This document shows, piece after piece, positions 11,637-18,456 of a stretch of DNA of 64,000 bases. This DNA comes from Hydrogenophilales bacterium. Lineage in GTDB: Bacteria > Pseudomonadota > Gammaproteobacteria > Burkholderiales > Thiobacillaceae. Numbering within the stretch: position 1 is the first letter of the stretch; each line of letters starts with the position of its first letter. The DNA lies in contig JAHFRD010000005.1 in NCBI GenBank assembly GCA_023258975.1, positions 1-64,000 of the forward strand, read 5' to 3'. Both the position numbers and the translations under genes were made by a program. A model generated the notes under the pieces. The model searched no databases, had not been told where the DNA came from, and was given only the letters and a program-made list of their open reading frames with translations.

Positions 11637-12263
11637 TCATAGCCACCCTCTTTCCGCAAAGGACACTGTGTCATTGCCAGCCACAATGATGTGGTCCATC
11701 ACCTTGCAATCGACGAACGCCAAAGCGGACCTCAATAGCTCGGTCAGACTACGATCAGCCTGCGATGGCTCAGCCATTCCTGATGGGTGGTTGTGAGCCA
11801 AGATCACTGCTGCGGCATTACGCAGCACAGCGCCTTTGACGATTTCGCGGGGGTAAACGCTGGTTTGCGTCAACGTCCCACGGAACAGTTCCTCGACCTC
11901 GATAAGGCAATTTTGCCCATCCAGCCACAACACCATGAAAACCTCATGCGGCAGTGTGCTCAGGGACAACTTGAGGTAATCCTTCACCTGGCTGGGTGAA
12001 TTAAGCTTCTGCCCAGCGCCAACAAGCTCTTCCGAGATACAACGGCGAGACAGTTCCCTGGACGCCGCCAACAAAAGCCTGGGTTGAGCCCAGCCATAAC
12101 TGGCGCCAGGCTCCCGAGCCATAAGTACCGTGCTGGGTTCCGAAGGAAACAGATCAGACAGGCACCCGCCGGTTTCCAGAAGCATGCAGTCAGCTTGGCT
12201 TTCGCCAACCAGAACGGCCAGCAGGTCGCGGTTTGAAAGTGCAGATATAGGTTGAGACAGCAT
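11637..12263 (-). CDS. radC: RadC-like JAB/MPN-domain protein
   Basis: 208 residues from the ATG that follows TGGAGGA; longer frames read through the structured leader. The C-terminal JAMM motif is HNHPSG followed by Asp in EPSQAD, with the preceding VEELFRGTLTQTSVYPREIV typical of RadC. JAB domains bind zinc and are predicted metallopeptidases; despite its name the family has no proven repair role. RadC copies are very common on conjugative elements beside anti-restriction genes. The N-terminal helix-hairpin-helix of chromosomal RadC is reduced here. Confidence 0.9.
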   Translation of the reverse strand: MLSQPISALSNRDLLAVLVGESQADCMLLETGGCLSDLFPSEPSTVLMAREPGASYGWAQPRLLLAASRELSRRCISEELVGAGQKLNSPSQVKDYLKLSLSTLPHEVFMVLWLDGQNCLIEVEELFRGTLTQTSVYPREIVKGAVLRNAAAVILAHNHPSGMAEPSQADRSLTELLRSALAFVDCKVMDHIIVAGNDTVSFAERGWL

Positions 12264-12295
12264 CGTGTCCTCCATTGCAGAAAAACACGGGGCGC

Positions 12296-12325
12296 CCCTT
12301 GGAGGAGGCGAACTCCCCGCAAGGG
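12296..12325 (-). promoter_or_regulatory. Structured leader A1 (upstream of radC)
   Basis: On the minus strand an outer stem CCCTTG/CAAGGG encloses an inner GGAG/CTCC hairpin; the loop contains CGCC, which can pair with GGCG just downstream. It ends ~30 bases before the radC start. It belongs to the leader family also seen at 12657, 13802, 14764, 15222, 16293, 17933 and 18290. Confidence 0.5.
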
Positions 12326-12366
12326 TTGGAAAAAAAGGGACTGCCAATTCGGCGCCGAAGCGCCAG

Positions 12367-12627
12367 CTACGACTCGGCGATCACCTCACGGTACAGCGCC
12401 TGGAAATCCAGGTCGCCGGCGGCGATCGCTTCAAGGGTTGCGACATCAAAGGCCTGAACGATGCGCGTGGCGCGCCGCTCAAGTTCCTGTCTGGCGATCA
12501 CCTGCCAGTTTTCGATGGTGGATAGACGCTCCAGCGCCGACGCATCATCACGGCCGTAGCCGCATTGACGCGCTCACGGAAAATCGTGATGGCCGCCTTG
12601 GCGCTACTCGACCACATACTGGGACAT
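12367..12627 (-). pseudogene. Small ICE gene with two early in-frame stops
   Basis: An ATG at 12627 follows a TTGGAGA ribosome site and leader A2. The frame reads MSQYVVE, then TAG, nine codons, TGA, and then stays open for about 68 codons to TAG at 12367, with ordinary protein composition (SALERLSTIENWQVIARQEL). It is probably a short gene inactivated by nonsense changes, or one frameshifted near codon 25, since the neighbouring frame also reads plausibly (AAITIFRERVNAATA). No family recognised. Confidence 0.5.
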
Positions 12628-12656
12628 GGTTTTTTCTCCAAAGATTGGAGAGGCCT

Positions 12657-12686
12657 CCCTGACGGGGAACGGCGCTCCCCGATGGG
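12657..12686 (-). promoter_or_regulatory. Structured leader A2
   Basis: Minus-strand outer CCC/GGG pairs around an inner stem GGGGA/TCCCC (complements of 12676-12680 and 12664-12668). A second hairpin, TCTCCA/TGGAGA, lies between it and the start of the disrupted small gene. Confidence 0.5.
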
Positions 12687-12701
12687 TGGTTGAAAAGTGA
12701 G

Positions 12702-13799
12702 CTACCGGATCGTCACCACCTGACCAAAACCATCGCCAGGCGTGAAATCCAAACCTCGAATCACCGGCACGAAGGTGTCAGTCAAACGGATGGTTTCGAC
12801 AATGCCGCCGTCTTGCTTGAACTCCTGATCCACTGCGCGCGCCTTCTCCTTGAAGGTGTCGCCCTTGATGAGGAGGGTTCTGGAGTCGGATCGCACCACG
12901 CCGGAAATCTGCCCGGCCGCCAGGGCCAAAGCCAGATGCCATTTGGACAGATCGCGCAACGGCCGTCTGGCCGGTAACGTAATCCGCCCGTACATGGCGC
13001 CGAACTGAGGCCACAGGGTATGGGCACCAAGGCGTCGAACCTCGGTTTCCAGTTGAGCGCCGTCAATGCGCAGCGAGGTGAAAGCAAACCCTTCTTCCGC
13101 CGTCATTGCCGGCACAAGGTAGGGTTCACCACTCCAGTCCTCGGGCAGTTCAGAAGGAAGCTCCCCCCGTCCGGCCGCTTCGAGCGCTCTCGCAATCGCC
13201 AGATCCGGGCTATCCGCCCGGCGCTTGACGCCCATCACCACGCATTGCTTGAACTGTCGTTCCGGCGCCATGTGAATCGTCACCCGCTCGAAGTTGCGGG
13301 CAACCATGGCGGAGAACTCGGCATCAAGCACGTAGTAAGGAACGATCAACACCATGACACCGCCGAATTGCAACCACGGCACCGTCTTGCGGTAGAAGAT
13401 CTTTTCCAGGCGCTCTCGCTTGGCGTTGTCCCCGGTGCCAGCCTTGTCGGAAACGACATCGCCATAAGGGGGGTTCAGGAACAGCAAGCCCAGGCTGCGC
13501 GCGGTCACGAAAACATCGTTCACATCCGCATGGGCCACGGTGTCGACCATCCCCTTCGCGTGCCAGGCACGTTCCGGGTCGAACTCCACGCCCAGGGCGG
13601 TGACAGCAGCACCGCACTCGCCCAGGTGGTTTTTTACCTCGGCCAGCGCAACACCCTCGCCACAACAGGGGTCCATGATGCGAACCCGGCCGGCGGCGAT
13701 GTCCAGAGCGGACAGTATCCGCTCCAGGGTCACCTCATCGGTGGGGAAATAACCATTCTTGATGAAGTTGCGCGCGAGGCGCGGGAAGATCAGGGCCAT
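12702..13799 (-). CDS. SAM-dependent DNA methyltransferase-like protein (DUF6094 type)
   Basis: 365 residues from the ATG preceded by GGAGG. The SAM motif is IMDPCCGEGVALAE and the amino-methylase motif IV is LNPPYGD, as in adenine N6-methylases. The C-terminal ~170 residues are a family-specific extension. Proteins of this kind are regular members of PFGI-1/SPI-7-type elements, close to radC, but their target is not established to my knowledge. It may modify the incoming element against host restriction; that is inference. Confidence 0.75.
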   Translation of the reverse strand: MALIFPRLARNFIKNGYFPTDEVTLERILSALDIAAGRVRIMDPCCGEGVALAEVKNHLGECGAAVTALGVEFDPERAWHAKGMVDTVAHADVNDVFVTARSLGLLFLNPPYGDVVSDKAGTGDNAKRERLEKIFYRKTVPWLQFGGVMVLIVPYYVLDAEFSAMVARNFERVTIHMAPERQFKQCVVMGVKRRADSPDLAIARALEAAGRGELPSELPEDWSGEPYLVPAMTAEEGFAFTSLRIDGAQLETEVRRLGAHTLWPQFGAMYGRITLPARRPLRDLSKWHLALALAAGQISGVVRSDSRTLLIKGDTFKEKARAVDQEFKQDGGIVETIRLTDTFVPVIRGLDFTPGDGFGQVVTIR

Positions 13800-13801
13800 A
13801 A

Positions 13802-13851
13802 GGCCTCCATGCAAAATGGACGGAGGCCCCCGGACGGGAGGCCCGTCCGGG
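13802..13851 (-). promoter_or_regulatory. Structured leader A3 (upstream of the DUF6094-type gene)
   Basis: A 10-base perfect hairpin CCCGGACGGG/CCCGTCCGGG (13829-13851, loop AGG) is followed on the minus strand by a second hairpin GGCCTCC/GGAGGCC (13802-13828) whose 3' arm contains the GGAGG ribosome site. Folding of the second hairpin would hide the site from ribosomes. Confidence 0.55.
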
Positions 13852-13861
13852 TGGGGAATTG

Positions 13862-13887
13862 AAAAACCCCGTCAGTGCTGCGCGGGG
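13862..13887 (-). terminator. Rho-independent terminator
   Basis: Minus-strand stem CCCCG/CGGGG (13883-13887 with 13867-13871) followed by a T-run (complement of 13862-13866). It lies just after the stop of the 41-residue membrane gene and before leader A3. Confidence 0.6.
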
Positions 13888-13909
13888 CTTGGTTTTGAAG
13901 GGGCGGCCG

Positions 13910-14035
13910 TTACTTCGTGAGCGCCTTGTCTTGCCTGTGGTGGTGATCCTCGGTGCGGTGCTTGTTCGCGTAGAGAGCCACGACAAGCATCACGACTGCG
14001 ACAAACCCGAGGCCAACCAATGATTCAATTGCCAT
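13910..14035 (-). CDS. 41-residue single-pass membrane protein with His-rich tail
   Basis: ATG at 14035 preceded by AGGAGA. One hydrophobic segment (LVGLGFVAVVMLVVALYA) is followed by a charged tail, KHRTEDHHHRQDK. It overlaps the end of the upstream membrane gene by 11 bases. The same two-gene arrangement recurs at 16717-17012, where the small partner also has one membrane span and an Asp/His/Lys-rich tail. Function unknown; candidates are an entry-exclusion, holin-like or regulatory peptide. Confidence 0.7.
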   Translation of the reverse strand: MAIESLVGLGFVAVVMLVVALYANKHRTEDHHHRQDKALTK

Positions 14036-14231
14036 CGTTATCTCCTGTCTCGATGCGCAAGATGTATGCCACCGAGAGTAGCACAAAGAATAAACAGACC
14101 AACCCGCCAACCACTTCCCAGCCGATTTTGTGATCGACCAGTCCTCCCACAATGGCTGTCACCATTGCGGCTGTGGCAAGGTTATCCACGACCTTTGCGA
14201 TGCCCTCGCGCTGGCCCTTATTAAACTTCAT
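14025..14231 (-). CDS. 68-residue membrane protein, paralogue of 16830-17012
   Basis: ATG preceded by GAGGAG. The N-terminus MKFNKGQREGIAKVVDNLA is amphipathic, and two membrane spans follow. The N-terminus is similar to MKLNKEQAKHLADTARIVA of the gene at 16830-17012, and each is followed by an overlapping tiny membrane gene, so the pair was duplicated within the element. Function unknown. Confidence 0.7.
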   Translation of the reverse strand: MKFNKGQREGIAKVVDNLATAAMVTAIVGGLVDHKIGWEVVGGLVCLFFVLLSVAYILRIETGDNDGN

Positions 14232-14496
14232 GTTTGCTCCTCATGGCGTCGAAGGCAGCGTTAAGGGTGGTGAAATCAATCGCCTCCATGCCCGATGCCC
14301 CTTGCTGTAACAGTTTTCCGGCTATCCGGTTGTTCTGACGGCTAAGCCGCATGAACTGGCTCGTGTCGTTGCAGTGCCTATCCCGGCGCGGGAAGTGCTC
14401 GAAGCGCTTCGGGTCGGACAGGTGCTTCGGCCGAATCCTCCAGCTCATCTCGTACTCGGCCGCGCCGTAAGGCGTCCACTTGATGATGTTTGTCAT
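14221..14496 (-). CDS. Hypothetical 91-residue basic protein
   Basis: The ATG giving MTNIIKWTPYG was preferred to a start 13 codons earlier because that extension would cover the leader region. The protein is rich in Arg and aromatic residues in its first half. Its 3' end overlaps the next membrane gene by 11 bases, so the three genes to 13910 form one unit. No family recognised. Confidence 0.6.
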   Translation of the reverse strand: MTNIIKWTPYGAAEYEMSWRIRPKHLSDPKRFEHFPRRDRHCNDTSQFMRLSRQNNRIAGKLLQQGASGMEAIDFTTLNAAFDAMRSKHEV

Positions 14497-14576
14497 GGTG
14501 TTGCTCCAAATAAATGTTGAAAGGAACGACACCACCCCAGCCGGGAGTGATGCGTCGCGGACTGGGAAGAAAAGAT

Positions 14577-14738
14577 TCAGGCGATGGTCCAGTTGCCGGT
14601 GAAAAGAGCATCACAGGCATCCTCGAACTGCTGATAGGCCTCTTTGGAGAGGCGGGCGAAACCGCAAATGGATTCGTCAAATGCGGCGATACAAAAACCG
14701 TTTCCGGCGTTGATGACTTGCAGTTGCAGGACTTCCAT
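14577..14738 (-). CDS. Hypothetical 53-residue protein
   Basis: A short gene supported by a strong GGAGG site five bases before the ATG, a structured leader A4 directly upstream, and an ordinary residue composition (MEVLQLQVINAGNGFCIAAF at the start). It contains three Cys and an acidic middle. No family recognised. Confidence 0.6.
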   Translation of the reverse strand: MEVLQLQVINAGNGFCIAAFDESICGFARLSKEAYQQFEDACDALFTGNWTIA

Positions 14739-14763
14739 GATGGCCTCCAGATAGGAAAGGGGA

Positions 14764-14817
14764 CCACCACGCCCAAAAGGACGTATCCCGGACGGGAAGG
14801 CGGACTCCCCGAGTGGG
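14764..14817 (-). promoter_or_regulatory. Structured leader A4 with pseudoknot
   Basis: On the minus strand: outer CCC/GGG, inner stem GGGGA/TTCCC, and a loop containing CCGCC (complement of 14799-14803). A separate hairpin ACGTCC-TTTT-GGGCGT follows (14769-14784), then GGTGG (complement of 14764-14768), which can pair with the loop through one G-U. The wobble works only on the minus strand. Confidence 0.6.
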
Positions 14818-14850
14818 TTTGAAATATTGCGACCGTGCTAGACTGCCCGC

Positions 14851-15057
14851 ATGAGCGGTAAACAACGGCTTCAAGTGATAAGTGGTGGGCGCGACCAGAT
14901 CGAGCAGGGGCTTGTGCAGCTCTTGTTCGCGCCTAGTCCAACACCGAAAGACGAATACAACCGCCTGATGAGCAAGCTAAAACCTGCTGCTAGGCGTGTT
15001 TCTTTAGTGACAGGCGGGATAGAACCTCCTCATCCAACAAACGCAGGGCGAGATTGA
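14851..15057 (+). CDS. Possible small plus-strand gene
   Basis: 68 codons starting MSGKQRLQVISGGRDQIEQG. The first ~50 residues have a believable composition and lie in otherwise gene-free sequence; the last ~20 overlap the minus-strand gene at 14990-15187. No clear ribosome site. It could be a chance frame. Confidence 0.3.
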   Translation: MSGKQRLQVISGGRDQIEQGLVQLLFAPSPTPKDEYNRLMSKLKPAARRVSLVTGGIEPPHPTNAGRD

Positions 15058-15187
15058 TGTCCGCCTTGCCTTCACGACTGGACACTCGGCGCCAGGCTTG
15101 TTGAATATCCTCCCGCCTCGCATCCAGTTCTGCATCACTAGCCTCTTCAAGCCAGCGCAAGAAGCCTTTGATTGCTTCCTTGTCCAT
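14990..15187 (-). CDS. Hypothetical 65-residue protein
   Basis: The ATG giving MDKEAIKGFLRWL follows GGAGG and leader A5. The product is short, charged and helical (EEASDAELDARREDIQQAW), consistent with a small regulatory or partner protein. No family recognised. Confidence 0.6.
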   Translation of the reverse strand: MDKEAIKGFLRWLEEASDAELDARREDIQQAWRRVSSREGKADINLALRLLDEEVLSRLSLKKHA

Positions 15188-15221
15188 GAACGCCTCCATA
15201 AATAATGCCGAAAGCGCGCAT

Positions 15222-15251
15222 CCCTACCGGGAGCGAAGCGCCCCGGCGGGG
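15222..15251 (-). promoter_or_regulatory. Structured leader A5
   Basis: Minus-strand stem CCGGG/CCCGG inside outer CCC/GGG pairs; the loop holds GCGC, which can pair with GCGC just downstream. It directly follows structured repeat B1 and precedes the 65-residue gene. Confidence 0.45.
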
Positions 15252-15260
15252 TTGAAAACA

Positions 15261-15366
15261 GCATTACGATAATCCCGACCTCTTGCGAGGCGTGCCGGTT
15301 ACAGGGACTGACCGGCCGCGAAGGGCACCCATAACGCCGGGTGGCGGGCTGTACTCAGCCAACGTG
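15261..15366 (-). repeat. Structured intergenic repeat B1
   Basis: One of three copies of a ~100-base repeat (others at 16520 and 18353). It begins with GCATTACGATAATCCCGA and ends with a GGCT/AGCC hairpin and CCAACGTG. It has a CCTC-TTGC-GAGG hairpin, then GCCGGT/ACCGGC (15294-15299, 15311-15316) whose loop GGGA (15304-15307) can pair with TCCC (15273-15276) as a pseudoknot. The functional strand is not certain; minus is assumed from the neighbouring genes. Confidence 0.6.
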
Positions 15367-15567
15367 TTCCTCCATGAGACATCAGCTATCCCATCGAGGA
15401 ACCCGTCGGGTTCAAGGTTGATTCATGGCGCCGGGCGGCATGTTGAATTACGTTGTTCCCTGCGGGCTTGGCCCGGGCGTCAGAATCGGGAACCAGGACG
15501 CCGAATAAAGGGGTGCGTCGCATGACGCAAAGGCCACGACAGTCTGGGTCGTCGTCACCCTGATTAG
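15367..15567. other. Gene-free stretch beside DUF3275
   Basis: No coding frame is convincing. Short inverted repeats such as GTTCCC/GGGAAC around 15450-15505 suggest more secondary structure between repeat B1 and the terminator-like hairpin. Confidence 0.3.
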
Positions 15568-15593
15568 GGAAAGCCCGTCGCAACGGGCTTTCC
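15568..15593 (-). terminator. Terminator-like hairpin downstream of DUF3275 gene
   Basis: GGAAAGCCCGT (15568-15578) pairs with ACGGGCTTTCC (15583-15593), loop CGCA. The T-tract is weak, but the position ~60 bases after the DUF3275 stop fits a terminator. Confidence 0.5.
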
Positions 15594-15653
15594 GCCGGGT
15601 AGGCCCGGTGGAAAGCCCGCTATGAGCAGGCCATCCGTTCAGGTTTTCACCTG

Positions 15654-16253
15654 CTAGAACGCATCCAGTTGAGGATGAGATTTCTCCCAGGTCTGGTTCA
15701 TCTTCTGGAACTGGTATCCCAATTCCTTCAGACGATCCCGCTGGTTGCGGAACAAACCCCGGTCGATGGTCGGATCAAGCTTGACCGGCTCGCCAGCAGC
15801 GACGATCAAGTAAAACTCAGGGCCGAACAGAACCGCATCCGGATCATCAGGATCGGCGGCGGGGGCTGCGACTTGTTCCACTTCTTCAGGGATGGCTGCT
15901 TGCGTTTGCTCAGCCAGGCTCTGTTCAGCGGGGTGCGCGACTTGCTGTTCCTCGTTCACCGGGTCAGGTTCGGACTGAACGGCGGGAACCGCCTTCTCTT
16001 CGCCCTCATCCAGGAAAATGTCGGAAACATTGACACGGATTTCCGTGGTCACCCTGCCATTCCAGACGTAGGTCGATGGAAAAATCTGAGTCACCAGGAA
16101 GGCGCCCCGATATTCCCCCTCTTCATACTGGTCCAGGATGGCGTCCTTGACCTTGAACTTGCCGATGGCGGTAGACAAATCGCCGACAGAGAAACCGCCG
16201 CGGGAACCGTTGATGTGGCGCACCACGAGGGTGCCTTCGAGTTTGATGGACAT
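15654..16253 (-). CDS. DUF3275 family ICE protein
   Basis: 199 residues from the ATG giving MSIKLEGTLVVRHINGSRG. The N-terminal ~85 residues form the conserved part, with the DUF3275 hallmarks GGFSVGDL, EEGEYRGAF and TEIRVNV. A Pro/Glu/Ala-rich linker (about 90-145) leads to a C-terminal segment ending RDRLKELGYQFQ. DUF3275 proteins are standard in PFGI-1/SPI-7-type elements; the beta-rich head resembles nucleic-acid-binding folds, but function is unknown. Confidence 0.8.
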   Translation of the reverse strand: MSIKLEGTLVVRHINGSRGGFSVGDLSTAIGKFKVKDAILDQYEEGEYRGAFLVTQIFPSTYVWNGRVTTEIRVNVSDIFLDEGEEKAVPAVQSEPDPVNEEQQVAHPAEQSLAEQTQAAIPEEVEQVAAPAADPDDPDAVLFGPEFYLIVAAGEPVKLDPTIDRGLFRNQRDRLKELGYQFQKMNQTWEKSHPQLDAF

Positions 16254-16292
16254 GCGCTGTACTCCAAGAAAGCCAGCCGGAGGCGCATGGTT

Positions 16293-16325
16293 CCCGCAAG
16301 GGAGCATGAAGCCCCCGCAAGCGGG
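16293..16325 (-). promoter_or_regulatory. Structured leader A6 (upstream of DUF3275 gene)
   Basis: Minus-strand outer stem CCCGC/GCGGG and inner stem GGGGGC/GCTCCC with loop TTCAT. It lies 40 bases before the DUF3275 start. Confidence 0.5.
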
Positions 16326-16519
16326 TTGAAAAAAAGAGTGGGAAAGGGGTGGGCCGCCACTCCGGAAGGAGTGGTCGGCTAGGCTTGATACTCAGCCTCG
16401 GGTGTTCAGACCGAGGCGGATGGGACTTGGCCGTTAGGCGGCCCCGAGTTGCTGTAGAGGCAATTTGTGTGGAATTGGCCAGAAGGGAGCTCCCGGCAAC
16501 CAAACCACAACGGCTTTTT

Positions 16520-16606
16520 GATTACATTGACCCCGAGCCTTGCGGCCGTACCAGTTACAGGGGCTGACTGGTCTCAATGGGCGCCACTTGCGTGGCAGTG
16601 TGTACG
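16520..16606 (-). repeat. Structured intergenic repeat B2
   Basis: Second copy of repeat B. GCC-TTGC-GGC hairpin, then ACCAGT/ACTGGT (16550-16555, 16567-16572) with loop GGGG (16560-16563) facing CCCC (16531-16534). Relative to the other copies (TCCC with GGGA) this is a compensatory change that keeps the pairing. The 16336-16519 stretch between it and leader A6 holds no recognisable gene. Confidence 0.6.
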
Positions 16607-16680
16607 TTTCTGAGCCTGGAAACGAACAAAGCAGGGAACAAACCGTTTTCCCGGAACAGCCTGGCGCAAGACGTTCTGGG

Positions 16681-16705
16681 AAAACCCCTCTTGCGAGGGG
16701 CTTTT
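16681..16705 (-). terminator. Rho-independent terminator
   Basis: CCCCTC-TTGC-GAGGGG stem (16685-16700) flanked by AAAA on the left, giving a U-run on the minus strand. It lies 12 bases after the stop of the 38-residue membrane gene. Confidence 0.75.
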
Positions 16706-16716
16706 CTGGTTAAAAC

Positions 16717-16833
16717 CTAGTGAGCGTGAGCGTCCTTATGGTCGTCCTTTCCCTTGCGGGAGAGGAAGTAAACAATCCAGCCGATGGCGATCATCACACC
16801 AACCAAACCTAGCAGGAAGTATTCGTGCATCAC
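16717..16833 (-). CDS. 38-residue single-pass membrane protein with Asp/His tail
   Basis: ATG with GGAGG upstream; starts MHEYFLLGLVGGVMIAIG, one membrane span, then a soluble tail SRKGKDDHKDAHAH. The stop-start overlap with the upstream gene is ATGA. It corresponds in order, topology and tail chemistry to the 41-residue gene at 13910-14035. Function unknown. Confidence 0.7.
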   Translation of the reverse strand: MMHEYFLLGLVGVMIAIGWIVYFLSRKGKDDHKDAHAH

Positions 16834-17012
16834 TCGCCCTCCAGTAGCATTACCGCCAACCACTCTGCGGCAAAGAACCACAGTGAGGAAATAACGGCTA
16901 TCAAGTATTGCTGATTAACGGTGGCAGTATAGCCAAATGCCGCAAACTGGGCGACGGCGACGATCCTTGCCGTATCCGCCAAGTGCTTGGCCTGTTCCTT
17001 GTTGAGCTTCAT
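16830..17012 (-). CDS. 60-residue membrane protein, paralogue of 14025-14231
   Basis: The ATG giving MKLNKEQAKHLADTA was chosen because GAGGAAAA precedes it. It has an amphipathic N-terminus and two hydrophobic segments, ending AVMLLEGE. The N-terminus resembles that of the 68-residue protein at 14025-14231, and both are followed by an overlapping one-span gene. The unit ends at a terminator. Confidence 0.7.
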   Translation of the reverse strand: MKLNKEQAKHLADTARIVAVAQFAAFGYTATVNQQYLIAVISSLWFFAAEWLAVMLLEGE

Positions 17013-17036
17013 TGGGTTTTCCTCATGTCGTCGACA

Positions 17037-17082
17037 GACCACTCACCATCCAAGGAATTGCTTCCCTGGATGGTTGATGGTC
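17037..17082 (-). promoter_or_regulatory. Nested-hairpin leader of the second membrane module
   Basis: Outer arms GACCA (17037-17041) and TGGTC (17078-17082) enclose CCATCC (17046-17051) and GGATGG (17068-17073). The architecture resembles family A without the GGGG core. It lies ~25 bases before the start at 17012. Confidence 0.45.
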
Positions 17083-17090
17083 AAGCCAGA

Positions 17091-17900
17091 TCAGGCAGCA
17101 GCCTTCTCGGCAAACGGGAAAGTGTCCCCATCCACCTTCGCCCAGGAGATGCTTGCGAGAGCACCTTTGAGCACCGCGTCAGTCTGGCCTTTCTTTTCGC
17201 CGCTCACATACTGGAACAGCTCGGCGCGGATGTTCTCCGCACGGAAACCGACCAACACCTTCTTCTTGGCCAGCAAGGCATCCTGGAGGGCTTGGGCCGA
17301 ATCCAGCGCGTCCGGGCCGACGGCCAGGATGAATCGCGTGGTTTCCACCTTGCCACCTTCCACGGGATCGCCACGAAGCGCGGCGATTGATGCCATCCAA
17401 GCGTATTCACCTTCGCCGAGATGGACCTTGCTCACCCGGTTGAGGTAAGCGACGCCAGAGGTAACCAACCCGAGGGGAGGCTGCTTGCTGGGAGTGTCGG
17501 TATAAGGCATCGCCGGAAGGTCGATGACCTGACCGTCCACCGTCGCCATGTACACCTTCAGAACACGCCCTTTGATGTTGACACCAAACTCACCCGCACG
17601 CGGGCCAGTCTTGAACGGGAACATCTCCGGGAACACATCACCGATTTTGACGGTGGCGATGATGCTCTTCTTGGCATCCGACGACGGTTTCAAGGCCATG
17701 ATGCAGGCCTTGGCGTGGGCGCCGACGACCTTGAGGTCGAATCGAGCGGGGCGAACCCCGTCACTGGACATGCTGGTCATGCGGCAAGCCACAAAACTGC
17801 CGCGGTTGACTTTGACCTCACGAATGTCCTCGATGTGACCGGTGACAAACGTGTGCAGATCGAAATACTTGGTAGTGGGATTGGAAGCGGTGTTGGTCAT
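17091..17900 (-). CDS. DUF3577 (STY4534-type) ICE replication-associated protein
   Basis: 269 residues from the ATG with AGGAGA upstream; the longer frame reads through leader A7. The N-terminus KYFDLHTFVTGHIEDIREVK and the conserved AYLNRVSKVHLGEGEYAWMAS stretch are typical of DUF3577/STY4534, a marker family of SPI-7/PFGI-1-type elements annotated as replication proteins. It normally lies near ssb and topB, as here with topB. No ssb is visible in this window. Confidence 0.85.
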   Translation of the reverse strand: MTNTASNPTTKYFDLHTFVTGHIEDIREVKVNRGSFVACRMTSMSSDGVRPARFDLKVVGAHAKACIMALKPSSDAKKSIIATVKIGDVFPEMFPFKTGPRAGEFGVNIKGRVLKVYMATVDGQVIDLPAMPYTDTPSKQPPLGLVTSGVAYLNRVSKVHLGEGEYAWMASIAALRGDPVEGGKVETTRFILAVGPDALDSAQALQDALLAKKKVLVGFRAENIRAELFQYVSGEKKGQTDAVLKGALASISWAKVDGDTFPFAEKAAA

Positions 17901-17932
17901 GATGATCTCCTGAGAAAGAAAGGAAGGGGAGA

Positions 17933-17986
17933 CCACCCTGTCGAAAATGACAGTTCCCATGTGGGGAAGGTGGATCCCCAGATGGG
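17933..17986 (-). promoter_or_regulatory. Structured leader A7 with pseudoknot (upstream of DUF3577 gene)
   Basis: On the minus strand, CCCAT/ATGGG encloses GGGG/CCCC with a loop containing CCACC (complement of 17969-17973). A hairpin CTGTC/GACAG follows (17938-17953), then GGTGG (complement of 17933-17937), fully complementary to the loop. The unit ends ~30 bases before the DUF3577 start. Confidence 0.65.
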
Positions 17987-18024
17987 TACAACGAGAAAGA
18001 GTTACAGCAACAAATTACAGAAAA

Positions 18025-18258
18025 CTACCCGATCTTGATGATCGCAGCGAGGATACCGACGGCGACCGCAAGCATGCCCCCCATACGCACCGTAAGTTCG
18101 AGTTTCAAGCGCTCCATGTCCTGCCGTAGCAGGCCAACATCTTGCTTGGTGGCAAGATTCTGCATGTCACGCTCCAAAGCGGTTACCACGTTCATAGCCT
18201 TGTCCTCTGGCACGTTGATGCTGAGAAGGGCGCTGTAAAGGCTAAGCTGAACATCCAT
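18025..18258 (-). CDS. 77-residue coiled-coil/membrane-anchored protein (DUF1640-like)
   Basis: The ATG follows GGAGA and leader A8. Residues ~20-57 form a charged helix (ERDMQNLATKQDVGLLRQD) and the C-terminus is one membrane span (GMLAVAVGILAAIIK). This layout, including the ATKQDVGLLRQDMERLK type of segment, resembles DUF1640/Bdr-like proteins, which are common on mobile elements and of unknown role. Confidence 0.65.
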   Translation of the reverse strand: MDVQLSLYSALLSINVPEDKAMNVVTALERDMQNLATKQDVGLLRQDMERLKLELTVRMGGMLAVAVGILAAIIKIG

Positions 18259-18289
18259 GATGGTCTCCAGAAATGAAAGGAAGGGGAGA

Positions 18290-18342
18290 CCACCCTGTCG
18301 AAAATGACAGTTCCCATAAGGGGAGGCGGATCCCCAGATGGG
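18290..18342 (-). promoter_or_regulatory. Structured leader A8 with pseudoknot
   Basis: Nearly the same design as A7: CCCAT/ATGGG, GGGG/CCCC, loop CCGCC (complement of 18325-18329), hairpin CTGTC/GACAG, then GGTGG (complement of 18290-18294). The A-to-G change in the loop turns an A-U pair into G-U, keeping the pairing only in minus-strand RNA. Confidence 0.65.
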
Positions 18343-18352
18343 TGAAAAAACA

Positions 18353-18456
18353 GCATTACGATAATCCCGAGCCTTGCGGCTGTACCAGTTTCAGGGACTG
18401 ACTGGTTGCAAAAGGCGCCCATATCGCAGGACGGCGGGCTGTACGAAGCCAACGTG
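18353..18456 (-). repeat. Structured intergenic repeat B3
   Basis: Third copy of repeat B, directly upstream (minus sense) of leader A8. Hairpin GCC-TTGC-GGC, stem ACCAGT/ACTGGT (18384-18389, 18401-18406), loop GGGA (18394-18397) able to pair with TCCC (18364-18367), and the GGCT/AGCC end hairpin before CCAACGTG. Confidence 0.6.

Follow-up and report, generated by a model that had tools for sequence, protein, structure and literature searches.

Many genes of one ICE family appear to be preceded by a cis-acting translational switch. The leader in question, called Q here, is about 65-95 nt long and ends on the start codon; it consists of a first hairpin (H1) and a downstream strand (anti-SD) that faces the Shine-Dalgarno (SD) sequence and the spacer behind it. 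From the sequence evidence, we put the probability that Q acts as such a switch at roughly two in three.

Leaders in the window (the whole 64,000-nt stretch of DNA that was analysed) were sought with covariance models, because purely mechanical hairpin scanning proved much too permissive and returned more than 100 window candidates. Model R3 was built from 19 leaders of other genomes and contains no window sequences. It gave ten matches at E <= 1 in the 64-kb window, the top seven of which (E 1.1e-6 to 0.031) are the seven leaders at the head of this list:

18256..18343, minus strand: Q leader of a 77-aa ORF (R3 E 2.7e-4); H1 18342-18313, second hairpin 18310-18295, anti-SD GGTGGTCTCC 18294-18285, SD to ATG 18268-18256.
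17898..17987, minus strand: Q leader of the DUF3577 (STY4534-like) gene (R3 E 1.1e-6); H1 17986-17956 with loop ATCCACCTT, second hairpin 17953-17938, anti-SD 17937-17928, SD to ATG 17910-17898.
14736..14819, minus strand: Q leader of a 53-aa ORF (R3 E 7.3e-5); H1 14817-14787, second hairpin 14784-14769, anti-SD GGTGGTCCCC 14768-14759, SD to ATG 14748-14736.
14494..14567, minus strand: Q leader of a 91-aa ORF (R3 E 0.0019); H1 14566-14536, anti-SD GGTGGTGTCGTTCC 14536-14523, SD to ATG 14507-14494.
12625..12688, minus strand: Q leader of a disrupted small ORF (R3 E 7.4e-4); H1 12686-12657, anti-SD 12657-12647, SD to ATG 12639-12625.
12261..12326, minus strand: Q leader of radC (R3 E 0.024); H1 12325-12296, anti-SD CCCCGTGTTTTTC 12292-12280, SD to ATG 12273-12261.
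15185..15252, minus strand: Q leader of a 65-aa ORF (R3 E 0.031); H1 15251-15222, anti-SD 15222-15210, SD to ATG 15197-15185.
13797..13855, minus strand: weak or variant leader of the DUF6094 methyltransferase gene (R3 E 0.53; 0.06 unfiltered).
16251..16325, minus strand: variant leader of the DUF3275 gene, recognised by eye only.
17010..17075, minus strand: possible further leader, of a small ORF starting near 17012 (R3 E 0.0029, unfiltered only).

The original prediction had placed at least eight minus-strand leaders here, naming eight, with outer CCC/GGG and inner GGGG/CCCC pairs. Those before the radC, disrupted small, 53-aa, 65-aa, DUF3577 and 77-aa genes were all recovered by R3. The remaining two can be folded by eye; the DUF6094 copy is weak, with its SD inside a GGCCTCC/GGAGGCC helix, and the DUF3275 copy has no significant R3 match in the window (16286-16327, E 0.42 unfiltered). 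DUF6094-type genes and DUF3275-type genes each have matches to another covariance model, R1, in three other loci. The loops CCGCC, CCACC and CCGCC of the 53-aa, DUF3577 and 77-aa copies and their GGTGG partners are present as described, and the change from CCACC to CCGCC opposite GGTGG does turn an A-U pair of minus-strand RNA into a G-U pair. The second hairpin likewise keeps its position while its sequence changes (ACGTCC/GGGCGT at 14784-14769, CTGTC/GACAG at 18310-18295 and 17953-17938). However, the proposed order of a second hairpin followed by the ribosome site holds in these three copies and fails in the others, where the downstream helix includes the ribosome site; by eye, a separate second hairpin is confined to these three in the window and to few leaders elsewhere. 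Pairing of the leader with the SD and start region had been overlooked.

Where do such leaders lie relative to genes? Across seven complete annotated records totalling 1.28 Mb, R3 gave 23 matches, and 20 of them stop precisely at an annotated start. For R1, the best 150 of 201 matches were aligned, and removal of 16 identical sequences left 134 distinct matches in ICE loci, some of them weak (E values reach 0.016) and one lying on the opposite strand; model and alignment were both fitted to the structure. All but one of these (133/134) terminate at ATG or GTG, an outcome built partly into the model, whose final codon is ATG; 124 of the 134 open an ORF of at least 40 aa. Behind the best 150 of 201 matches stand 123 ORFs of at least 45 aa, which fall into 34 BLAST groups, 16 of them single. 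The gene types include RadC, SNF2/DEAD helicase, DUF6573, DUF6927, DUF932, antirestriction, C5 methylase and DUF3560, and the leaders extend over named gamma- and betaproteobacterial elements, one copy per start codon with genes in between. As judged from these comparisons, the leaders are real and are tied to the start codons of unrelated genes.

The strongest covariation in the leader joins the upstream anti-SD strand to the SD and spacer, with double changes in all nine pairs. The covariation score of the whole structure is 0.281, compared with 0.164 after shuffling and at most 0.102 after sliding; the MAFFT alignments are imperfect at stem borders, and the register of the anti-SD helix shifts by at least one base from group to group. 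For duplex tests, 129 of the 134 R1 leaders were kept (ORF of at least 25 aa and an SD), and then 78 at less than 72% identity. In the first test against shuffles, both sham segments beat the shuffles too (z -4.1 and -3.8), a composition effect; swaps within the same ICE and shuffles of own composition were therefore used. Against swapped partners, the pairing of anti-SD with SD and spacer gave z -10.8, and with the spacer without the SD z -8.6; the shams were still non-zero (z -3.0 and -4.2). In predicted folding (n=78), the SD has a mean open probability of 0.087, versus 0.277 when the upstream sequence is shuffled. G-U pairs exceed A-C in this helix by 102 to 68, which favours sense-strand RNA. 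At the level of sequence, the anti-SD strand both pairs and covaries with SD and spacer, and Q can be classed as an SD-sequestering leader in that its covarying helix takes in both.

The GGGG/CCCC core of H1 is nearly invariant, so the hairpin itself has little covariation support; its outer and inner stems are paired in 76.5% and 89.6% of cells. Its loop is complementary to the anti-SD strand when compared with shuffles of its own composition (p=6.6e-12, n=78). The controls gave p=0.15 for the reversed loop and p=0.50 for the first nine H1 bases (n=78 for both), and a reversed spacer was likewise significant (p 6e-7). The result extends to leaders outside DUF3577 genes (p 1.9e-9, n=60; reversed 0.51), and own loops exceed those swapped inside the same ICE (z -7.3; shams -3.0 and -4.2). 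At least five contiguous loop pairs are found in 41 of 78 leaders, against 15.9 for shuffled loops; in the DUF3577 leader, the computed duplex of loop and anti-SD has -10.0 kcal/mol. The site of loop pairing overlaps that of SD pairing in 91 of 97 cases; with so short a segment, random placement would by itself give 82%. When loop and partner are blocked in predicted folding (n=78), mean SD opening rises from 0.087 to 0.204 (control 0.111), exceeds 0.5 in 5 of 78 leaders, and decreases in one of two window copies; opening is only partial because the CUCC part of the anti-SD can remain on the SD. Taken over the set, these comparisons indicate that the H1 loop is complementary to the anti-SD strand and varies along with it leader by leader. 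Covariation, loop complementarity and a fixed position at start codons thus support the prediction of a structured leader family that includes a loop pseudoknot; a lack of covariation or of such a position, named beforehand as evidence against it, is not what the alignments and start registers display.

How might such a leader work? The pairing of anti-SD with SD and that of loop with anti-SD may be alternatives. In an OFF state, the ribosome site would be covered by the anti-SD strand; in an ON-leaning state, the loop of H1 would pair with that strand instead, forming a pseudoknot. We infer this direction together with a trigger, namely a factor or condition in element activation or entry that would stabilise the pseudoknot. 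Since loop and anti-SD are made before the ribosome site, the pseudoknot could form first during transcription.

The same structure could instead keep translation constitutively low, with the SD helix throttling the gene or insulating it from read-through translation and the loop complementarity a by-product. The SD is indeed strongly covered in predicted folding, 37 of the 78 leaders are without strong loop pairing, and the leaders repeat before gene after gene. However, a plain blocking hairpin needs neither leader-specific loop complementarity nor H1 stems paired in 76-90% of cells, and we regard this explanation as rather unlikely. The G+C-rich H1 and the pyrimidine-rich linker between anti-SD and SD (T 0.40, C 0.26) could also suggest a transcriptional attenuator or processing site, in which H1 would be terminator-like or an RNase site and the SD helix secondary. 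Against this, in the leaders examined by eye the anti-SD strand, and not an immediate U run, comes after H1, and the strongest covariation involves the SD; it has little probability in our estimation.

Could Q act as DNA? Frpo is a promoter active on single-stranded DNA, and Q might be an Frpo-like promoter or priming site acting as the transferred strand enters the recipient. Antirestriction, radC and methylase genes would suit early entry. The covarying helix ends on the SD and start codon, though, Q stands before each of several genes in a run rather than at one operon head, and G-U pairs outnumber A-C pairs on the coding strand. We hold a single-stranded DNA role to be improbable, only slightly less so than an attenuator, even with leading-region biology on its side (PMC11541004) and with such a role weighed for the STAXI motif by its authors (PMC2864571). 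Several copies per element and the weak DUF6094 and DUF3275 window copies might be taken for functionless decay of a mobile repeat. This is very improbable and already largely contradicted by the register with annotated starts, the compensatory changes and the occurrence in a range of named gamma- and betaproteobacterial elements.

Is Q, read as a translational switch, one of the known motifs? The choice left by the original prediction, STAXI or a new family, is largely settled: on the model matches, the leader is something else and STAXI a neighbouring module. Identity with STAXI (RF01728) was rejected, with no match in the window or in its own genome at E <= 10; nor did 13 ICE-bearing genomes give one at E <= 1. 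Among 16 genomes or records, SGI4 was over the cut-off and ICEHin1056 below it, with matches upstream of Q or without Q. In SGI4, a Q leader follows 61-64 nt downstream of two of the three strong matches; in ICEHin1056, two sub-threshold ones (E 0.002-0.003) are within 60 nt of a Q leader. Both motifs are pseudoknots near DNA-handling genes, but the STAXI unit comes in two or three tandem copies, unlike the single Q. STAXI consists of tandem pseudoknots with UUCG loops, and start-codon pairing is not described in the passage concerned (PMC2864571).

Identity of the leader itself with radC RNA (RF01754) was also rejected, as the window has no match; the own genome has none either, where the control was also silent. 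The genes associated with radC RNA are radC, antirestriction genes and methylases. Q precedes RadC, antirestriction, C5 methylase and DUF6094-type genes and thus shares its gene position, and the two occur in the same elements. Seven loci hold 13 distinct matches to radC RNA and 62 to R1 (E <= 1). Of the 13, eight are located on the 5' side of an R1 match, one runs 29 nt into its R1 match and four have no adjoining one, so that in 9 of 13 an R1 match overlaps or starts at most 40 nt downstream. The 149-position model ends ahead of the leader in all but one case. At the Rfam 15 gathering score, no family overlaps the window leaders, and the sources scanned (sets of 20, 7, 7 and 1, covering part of the loci) yielded radC, STAXI and group II intron only, none covering the leader; the 29-nt overlap is the sole one elsewhere. 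No description of the leader was found among the papers listed from open-licence PubMed Central literature. The DUF3577 protein is a conceivable regulator; a PDB sequence search with it gave no match.

In fold-back inhibition of insertion-sequence transposase mRNA, a leader strand covers the ribosome site, as in Q, of a mobile-element gene. Q differs in its extra hairpin, with a loop that would compete for that strand, and in its repetition before many genes. Translational pseudoknot riboswitches such as preQ1 resemble Q in that pseudoknot and SD pairing decide ribosome access (PMC10622847). In contrast to these, loop, anti-SD and spacer of Q change together from gene to gene, before unrelated genes of a mobile element, and no conserved unpaired ligand core is apparent in the Q alignments.

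A further module, P, is a new 43-nt pseudoknot with a GNRA hairpin, separate from Q and found 5' of some Q leaders:

18364..18406, minus strand: P element, 20 nt 5' of the 77-aa leader.
15272..15316, minus strand: P element, 19 nt 5' of the 65-aa leader.
16530..16572, minus strand: P element, about 205 nt upstream of the variant DUF3275 leader; a U-A to C-G double change lies in its pseudoknot.

These three were absent from the original list, as were the 91-aa copy and the weak copy at 17010-17075. The P pattern, derived from these window copies, has three window matches against 0.02 expected; in a 369-genome class sample, the P model had no strong match beyond its own genome (best foreign E 3e-4, noise-like). 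Before some copies of Q, P, radC RNA or STAXI may be a sensing or operon-head part. A wider and more tentative reading, possible though doubtful, is a modular RNA regulon: Q would be reused before about thirty gene families, with P, radC RNA and STAXI as exchangeable upstream sensor or antitermination modules at some genes, and a single signal in activation or entry would open the whole establishment gene set. Two orphan Rfam families would then gain their missing downstream half.

Control of establishment genes in such elements is usually sought at promoters. A shared translational leader before dozens of element genes would, if true, be an unrecognised layer of control, and as a common downstream partner it would link the unexplained STAXI and radC motifs and suggest their role. 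The host elements (ICEHin1056, SGI4, a plasmid that we take from its kinship to be pKLC102-like, and relatives) carry genes between bacteria. At E <= 1, R1 matches the own genome (3.63 Mb) nine times; seven of these matches fall within the 6-kb module, and three of the seven belonged to the R1 training set. The two outside are C15 (E 0.026), a probable chance match with a frame of only 42 aa behind it, and C23, which has a P element, a Q-like leader and a Q leader.

Q, the proposed cis-acting RNA leader that ends on a start codon, recurs in related elements. Gathering these through their DUF3577 genes gave 43 loci, some sharing a genome, and an ATG with a ribosome site was found in 34 of them. 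By eye, nearly all of the 34 share one architecture upstream of the start, ACCC-nn-GGGG-loop-CCCC-nn-GGG; 3' of this first hairpin (H1) come a strand of the type GGTGTTTCCC, a linker rich in pyrimidines and GGAGAAACACC-ATG. R1, a covariance model trained on 23 leaders, three of them window copies, was searched against the window and 30 loci (662,537 bp, duplicates L045 and L046 included). At E ≤ 1 there were 201 matches, the first of which on the strand opposite the module has E 0.016; these E-values are rough by the search tool's own note. Among the best 150 of the 201, 134 are distinct. Of these, 133 finish with ATG or GTG, the model itself having ATG at its end, and 124 lead into a reading frame of at least 40 aa. 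By BLAST linkage, the 123 ORFs of at least 45 aa behind R1 matches form 34 groups, 16 of them single, the largest being DUF3577 (27), RadC (13), helicase (9) and a 53-aa family (8); ten representatives were searched against Pfam. The locus choice was mostly through DUF3577, and related leaders inflate the counts despite a 72% cut.

In a class-wide sample, 29 of 369 genomes have R1 matches at E ≤ 0.001: 17 of the 18 with DUF3577 versus 12 of the 351 others, an association that is partly circular because R1 was trained on DUF3577 leaders. The matches without detected DUF3577 are in G107, G089, G131, G249 and eight further genomes, and some are clustered. Element families beyond this one may also carry the leader.

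Eight leaders had originally been predicted on the minus strand of the window, at 12296-18342. Six of them, together with a further leader before a 91-aa ORF, make up the seven clear leaders, and these are the top seven matches in the 64-kb window of R3, a second model trained on 19 leaders from which the window and its close relatives L001 and L002 were excluded. The copy before the DUF6094 gene is weak (tenth, E 0.53), ranking behind 36929 (E 0.096, far from the module) and 14785 (other strand, E 0.42). Over seven whole annotated records, R3 gave 23 matches at E ≤ 0.01, of which 20 end exactly on an annotated start. The misses are SGI4 4804, where no gene is annotated, and two DUF3577 genes with another annotated start. 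At L066 11977 and L068 12001, where the annotation of DUF3577 genes uses a different start, the leader may mark the true one. The second hairpin of three window copies is found at the same position, in unrelated sequence, in the DUF3577 leaders of loci L008 and L021; it was not seen in most other leaders.

The predicted structure is accompanied by covariation in related ICEs. In a model-fitted alignment with 134 distinct rows, pairing holds in 82.9% of cells and double changes occur in 14 of 17 pairs; the covariation score is 0.281, compared with 0.164 for shuffled and at most 0.102 for slid controls. Double changes affect all nine pairs of the helix between the anti-Shine-Dalgarno (anti-SD) strand and the SD region, and the core of the inner stem of H1 is nearly invariant. 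Since a fitted alignment leans towards its own structure, a further set of pairing tests compared segments instead of alignment columns. Within ICEs (23 loci, 118 leaders), exchanging a leader's SD region for one from another gene makes pairing with the anti-SD strand weaker (z -10.8, or -8.6 without the SD itself), as does exchanging its hairpin loop (z -7.3); two sham segments gave z -3.0 and -4.2. Loops complement the anti-SD strand better than shuffles of their own letters do (mean percentile 0.217, p 6.6e-12, n=78), also without DUF3577 leaders (n=60, p 1.9e-9), and at least five contiguous pairs form in 41 of 78 loops versus 15.9 for shuffled loops. For reversed loops the percentile is 0.47 and for the opening nine bases of H1 0.50, neither of which indicates complementarity. 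The spacer is likewise significant (0.178, n=77), and its reversed control is weak because it is significant itself (0.34, p 6e-7).

How might such a leader act? The SD is predicted to be covered by default: its open probability has a mean of 0.087 and a median of 0.011, and shuffling the upstream sequence raises the mean to 0.277. The stretches of the anti-SD strand that pair with loop and SD overlap by half or more in 91 of 97 cases (82% by chance), and the two pairings are probably mutually exclusive because both use much the same stretch. The loop duplex averages -5.7 in energy and that of the SD region -14.0, which means that the pseudoknot loses at equilibrium unless it is formed first or stabilised. 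A switch is proposed for this reason: in a young or factor-bound transcript the anti-SD strand would be held in the pseudoknot and the gene translated, while a relaxed transcript would be silent. Counting against this, blocking the loop partner in folding raises SD opening only to 0.204 on average. Judged from sequence, Q looks like a translational switch.

Is Q a known RNA? Three kinds of structured RNA stand just 5' of some Q leaders, and many leaders adjoin none of them. One, P, is a putative 43-nt pseudoknotted RNA found in this analysis, in which the GTCCC loop of a hairpin would pair with GGGAY beyond a GNRA-type hairpin. The whole genome from which the window comes has four copies:

Window 18364-18406, minus strand, P copy
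Window 16530-16572, minus strand, P copy
Window 15272-15316, minus strand, P copy
Own genome, C23:32899-32943, P copy

In an alignment of 15 copies from related elements, pairing holds in 98.7% of cells and double changes occur in 10 of the 15 pairs; the pseudoknot helix has one in only 1 of 5 pairs, and variants outside this alignment change both sides (e.g., ATCTCCT/AGGAGAT). By hand count, leaving out the duplicates L045 and L046 and also L072, which was not in the R1 search, an R1 match (E ≤ 1) lies within 40 nt after 28 of 32 distinct P matches (E ≤ 1e-5). The other two are Rfam families. An R1 match follows or overlaps 9 of 13 distinct radC RNA matches; after the remaining four, a Q-like hairpin is seen by eye in two cases and none in two. 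STAXI, to which the original prediction had compared the leaders, precedes Q at two of three strong matches in SGI4 and at two sub-threshold matches in ICEHin1056. When membership was tested, Q belonged neither to STAXI nor to radC RNA. Rfam 15 places no family over the leader in the window or the scanned relatives, save one 29-nt radC overlap, and no description turned up in searches of open-licence literature. Q looks like a new, translational-switch-like family with an unusual modular arrangement.

Seven of the nine R1 matches (E ≤ 1) in the window's own genome lie inside the window module. At a second locus, on C23 (L072 5899-6565), a 140-aa ORF is preceded by P and a Q-like leader, and a 278-aa protein by a Q leader in which the loop and the second hairpin are similar to those of the window DUF3577 leader.

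RadC, DUF6094, DUF3275 and DUF3577 genes are present in the leader region of the window. Upstream are a topoisomerase, ParA and a ParB-like protein (best NCBIfam model ICE_PFGI_1_parB, below its cut-off), and downstream a XerC-like recombinase and a KfrA-like protein. No transfer genes were seen in the portion of the window whose proteins were scanned, and the element may therefore be a reduced one. The DUF3577 protein scores 152 bits against the NCBIfam STY4534 family ICE replication protein, below the cut-off of 160. At 17091-17900, one 269-aa protein has two DUF3577 matches; most relatives are of single-copy length.
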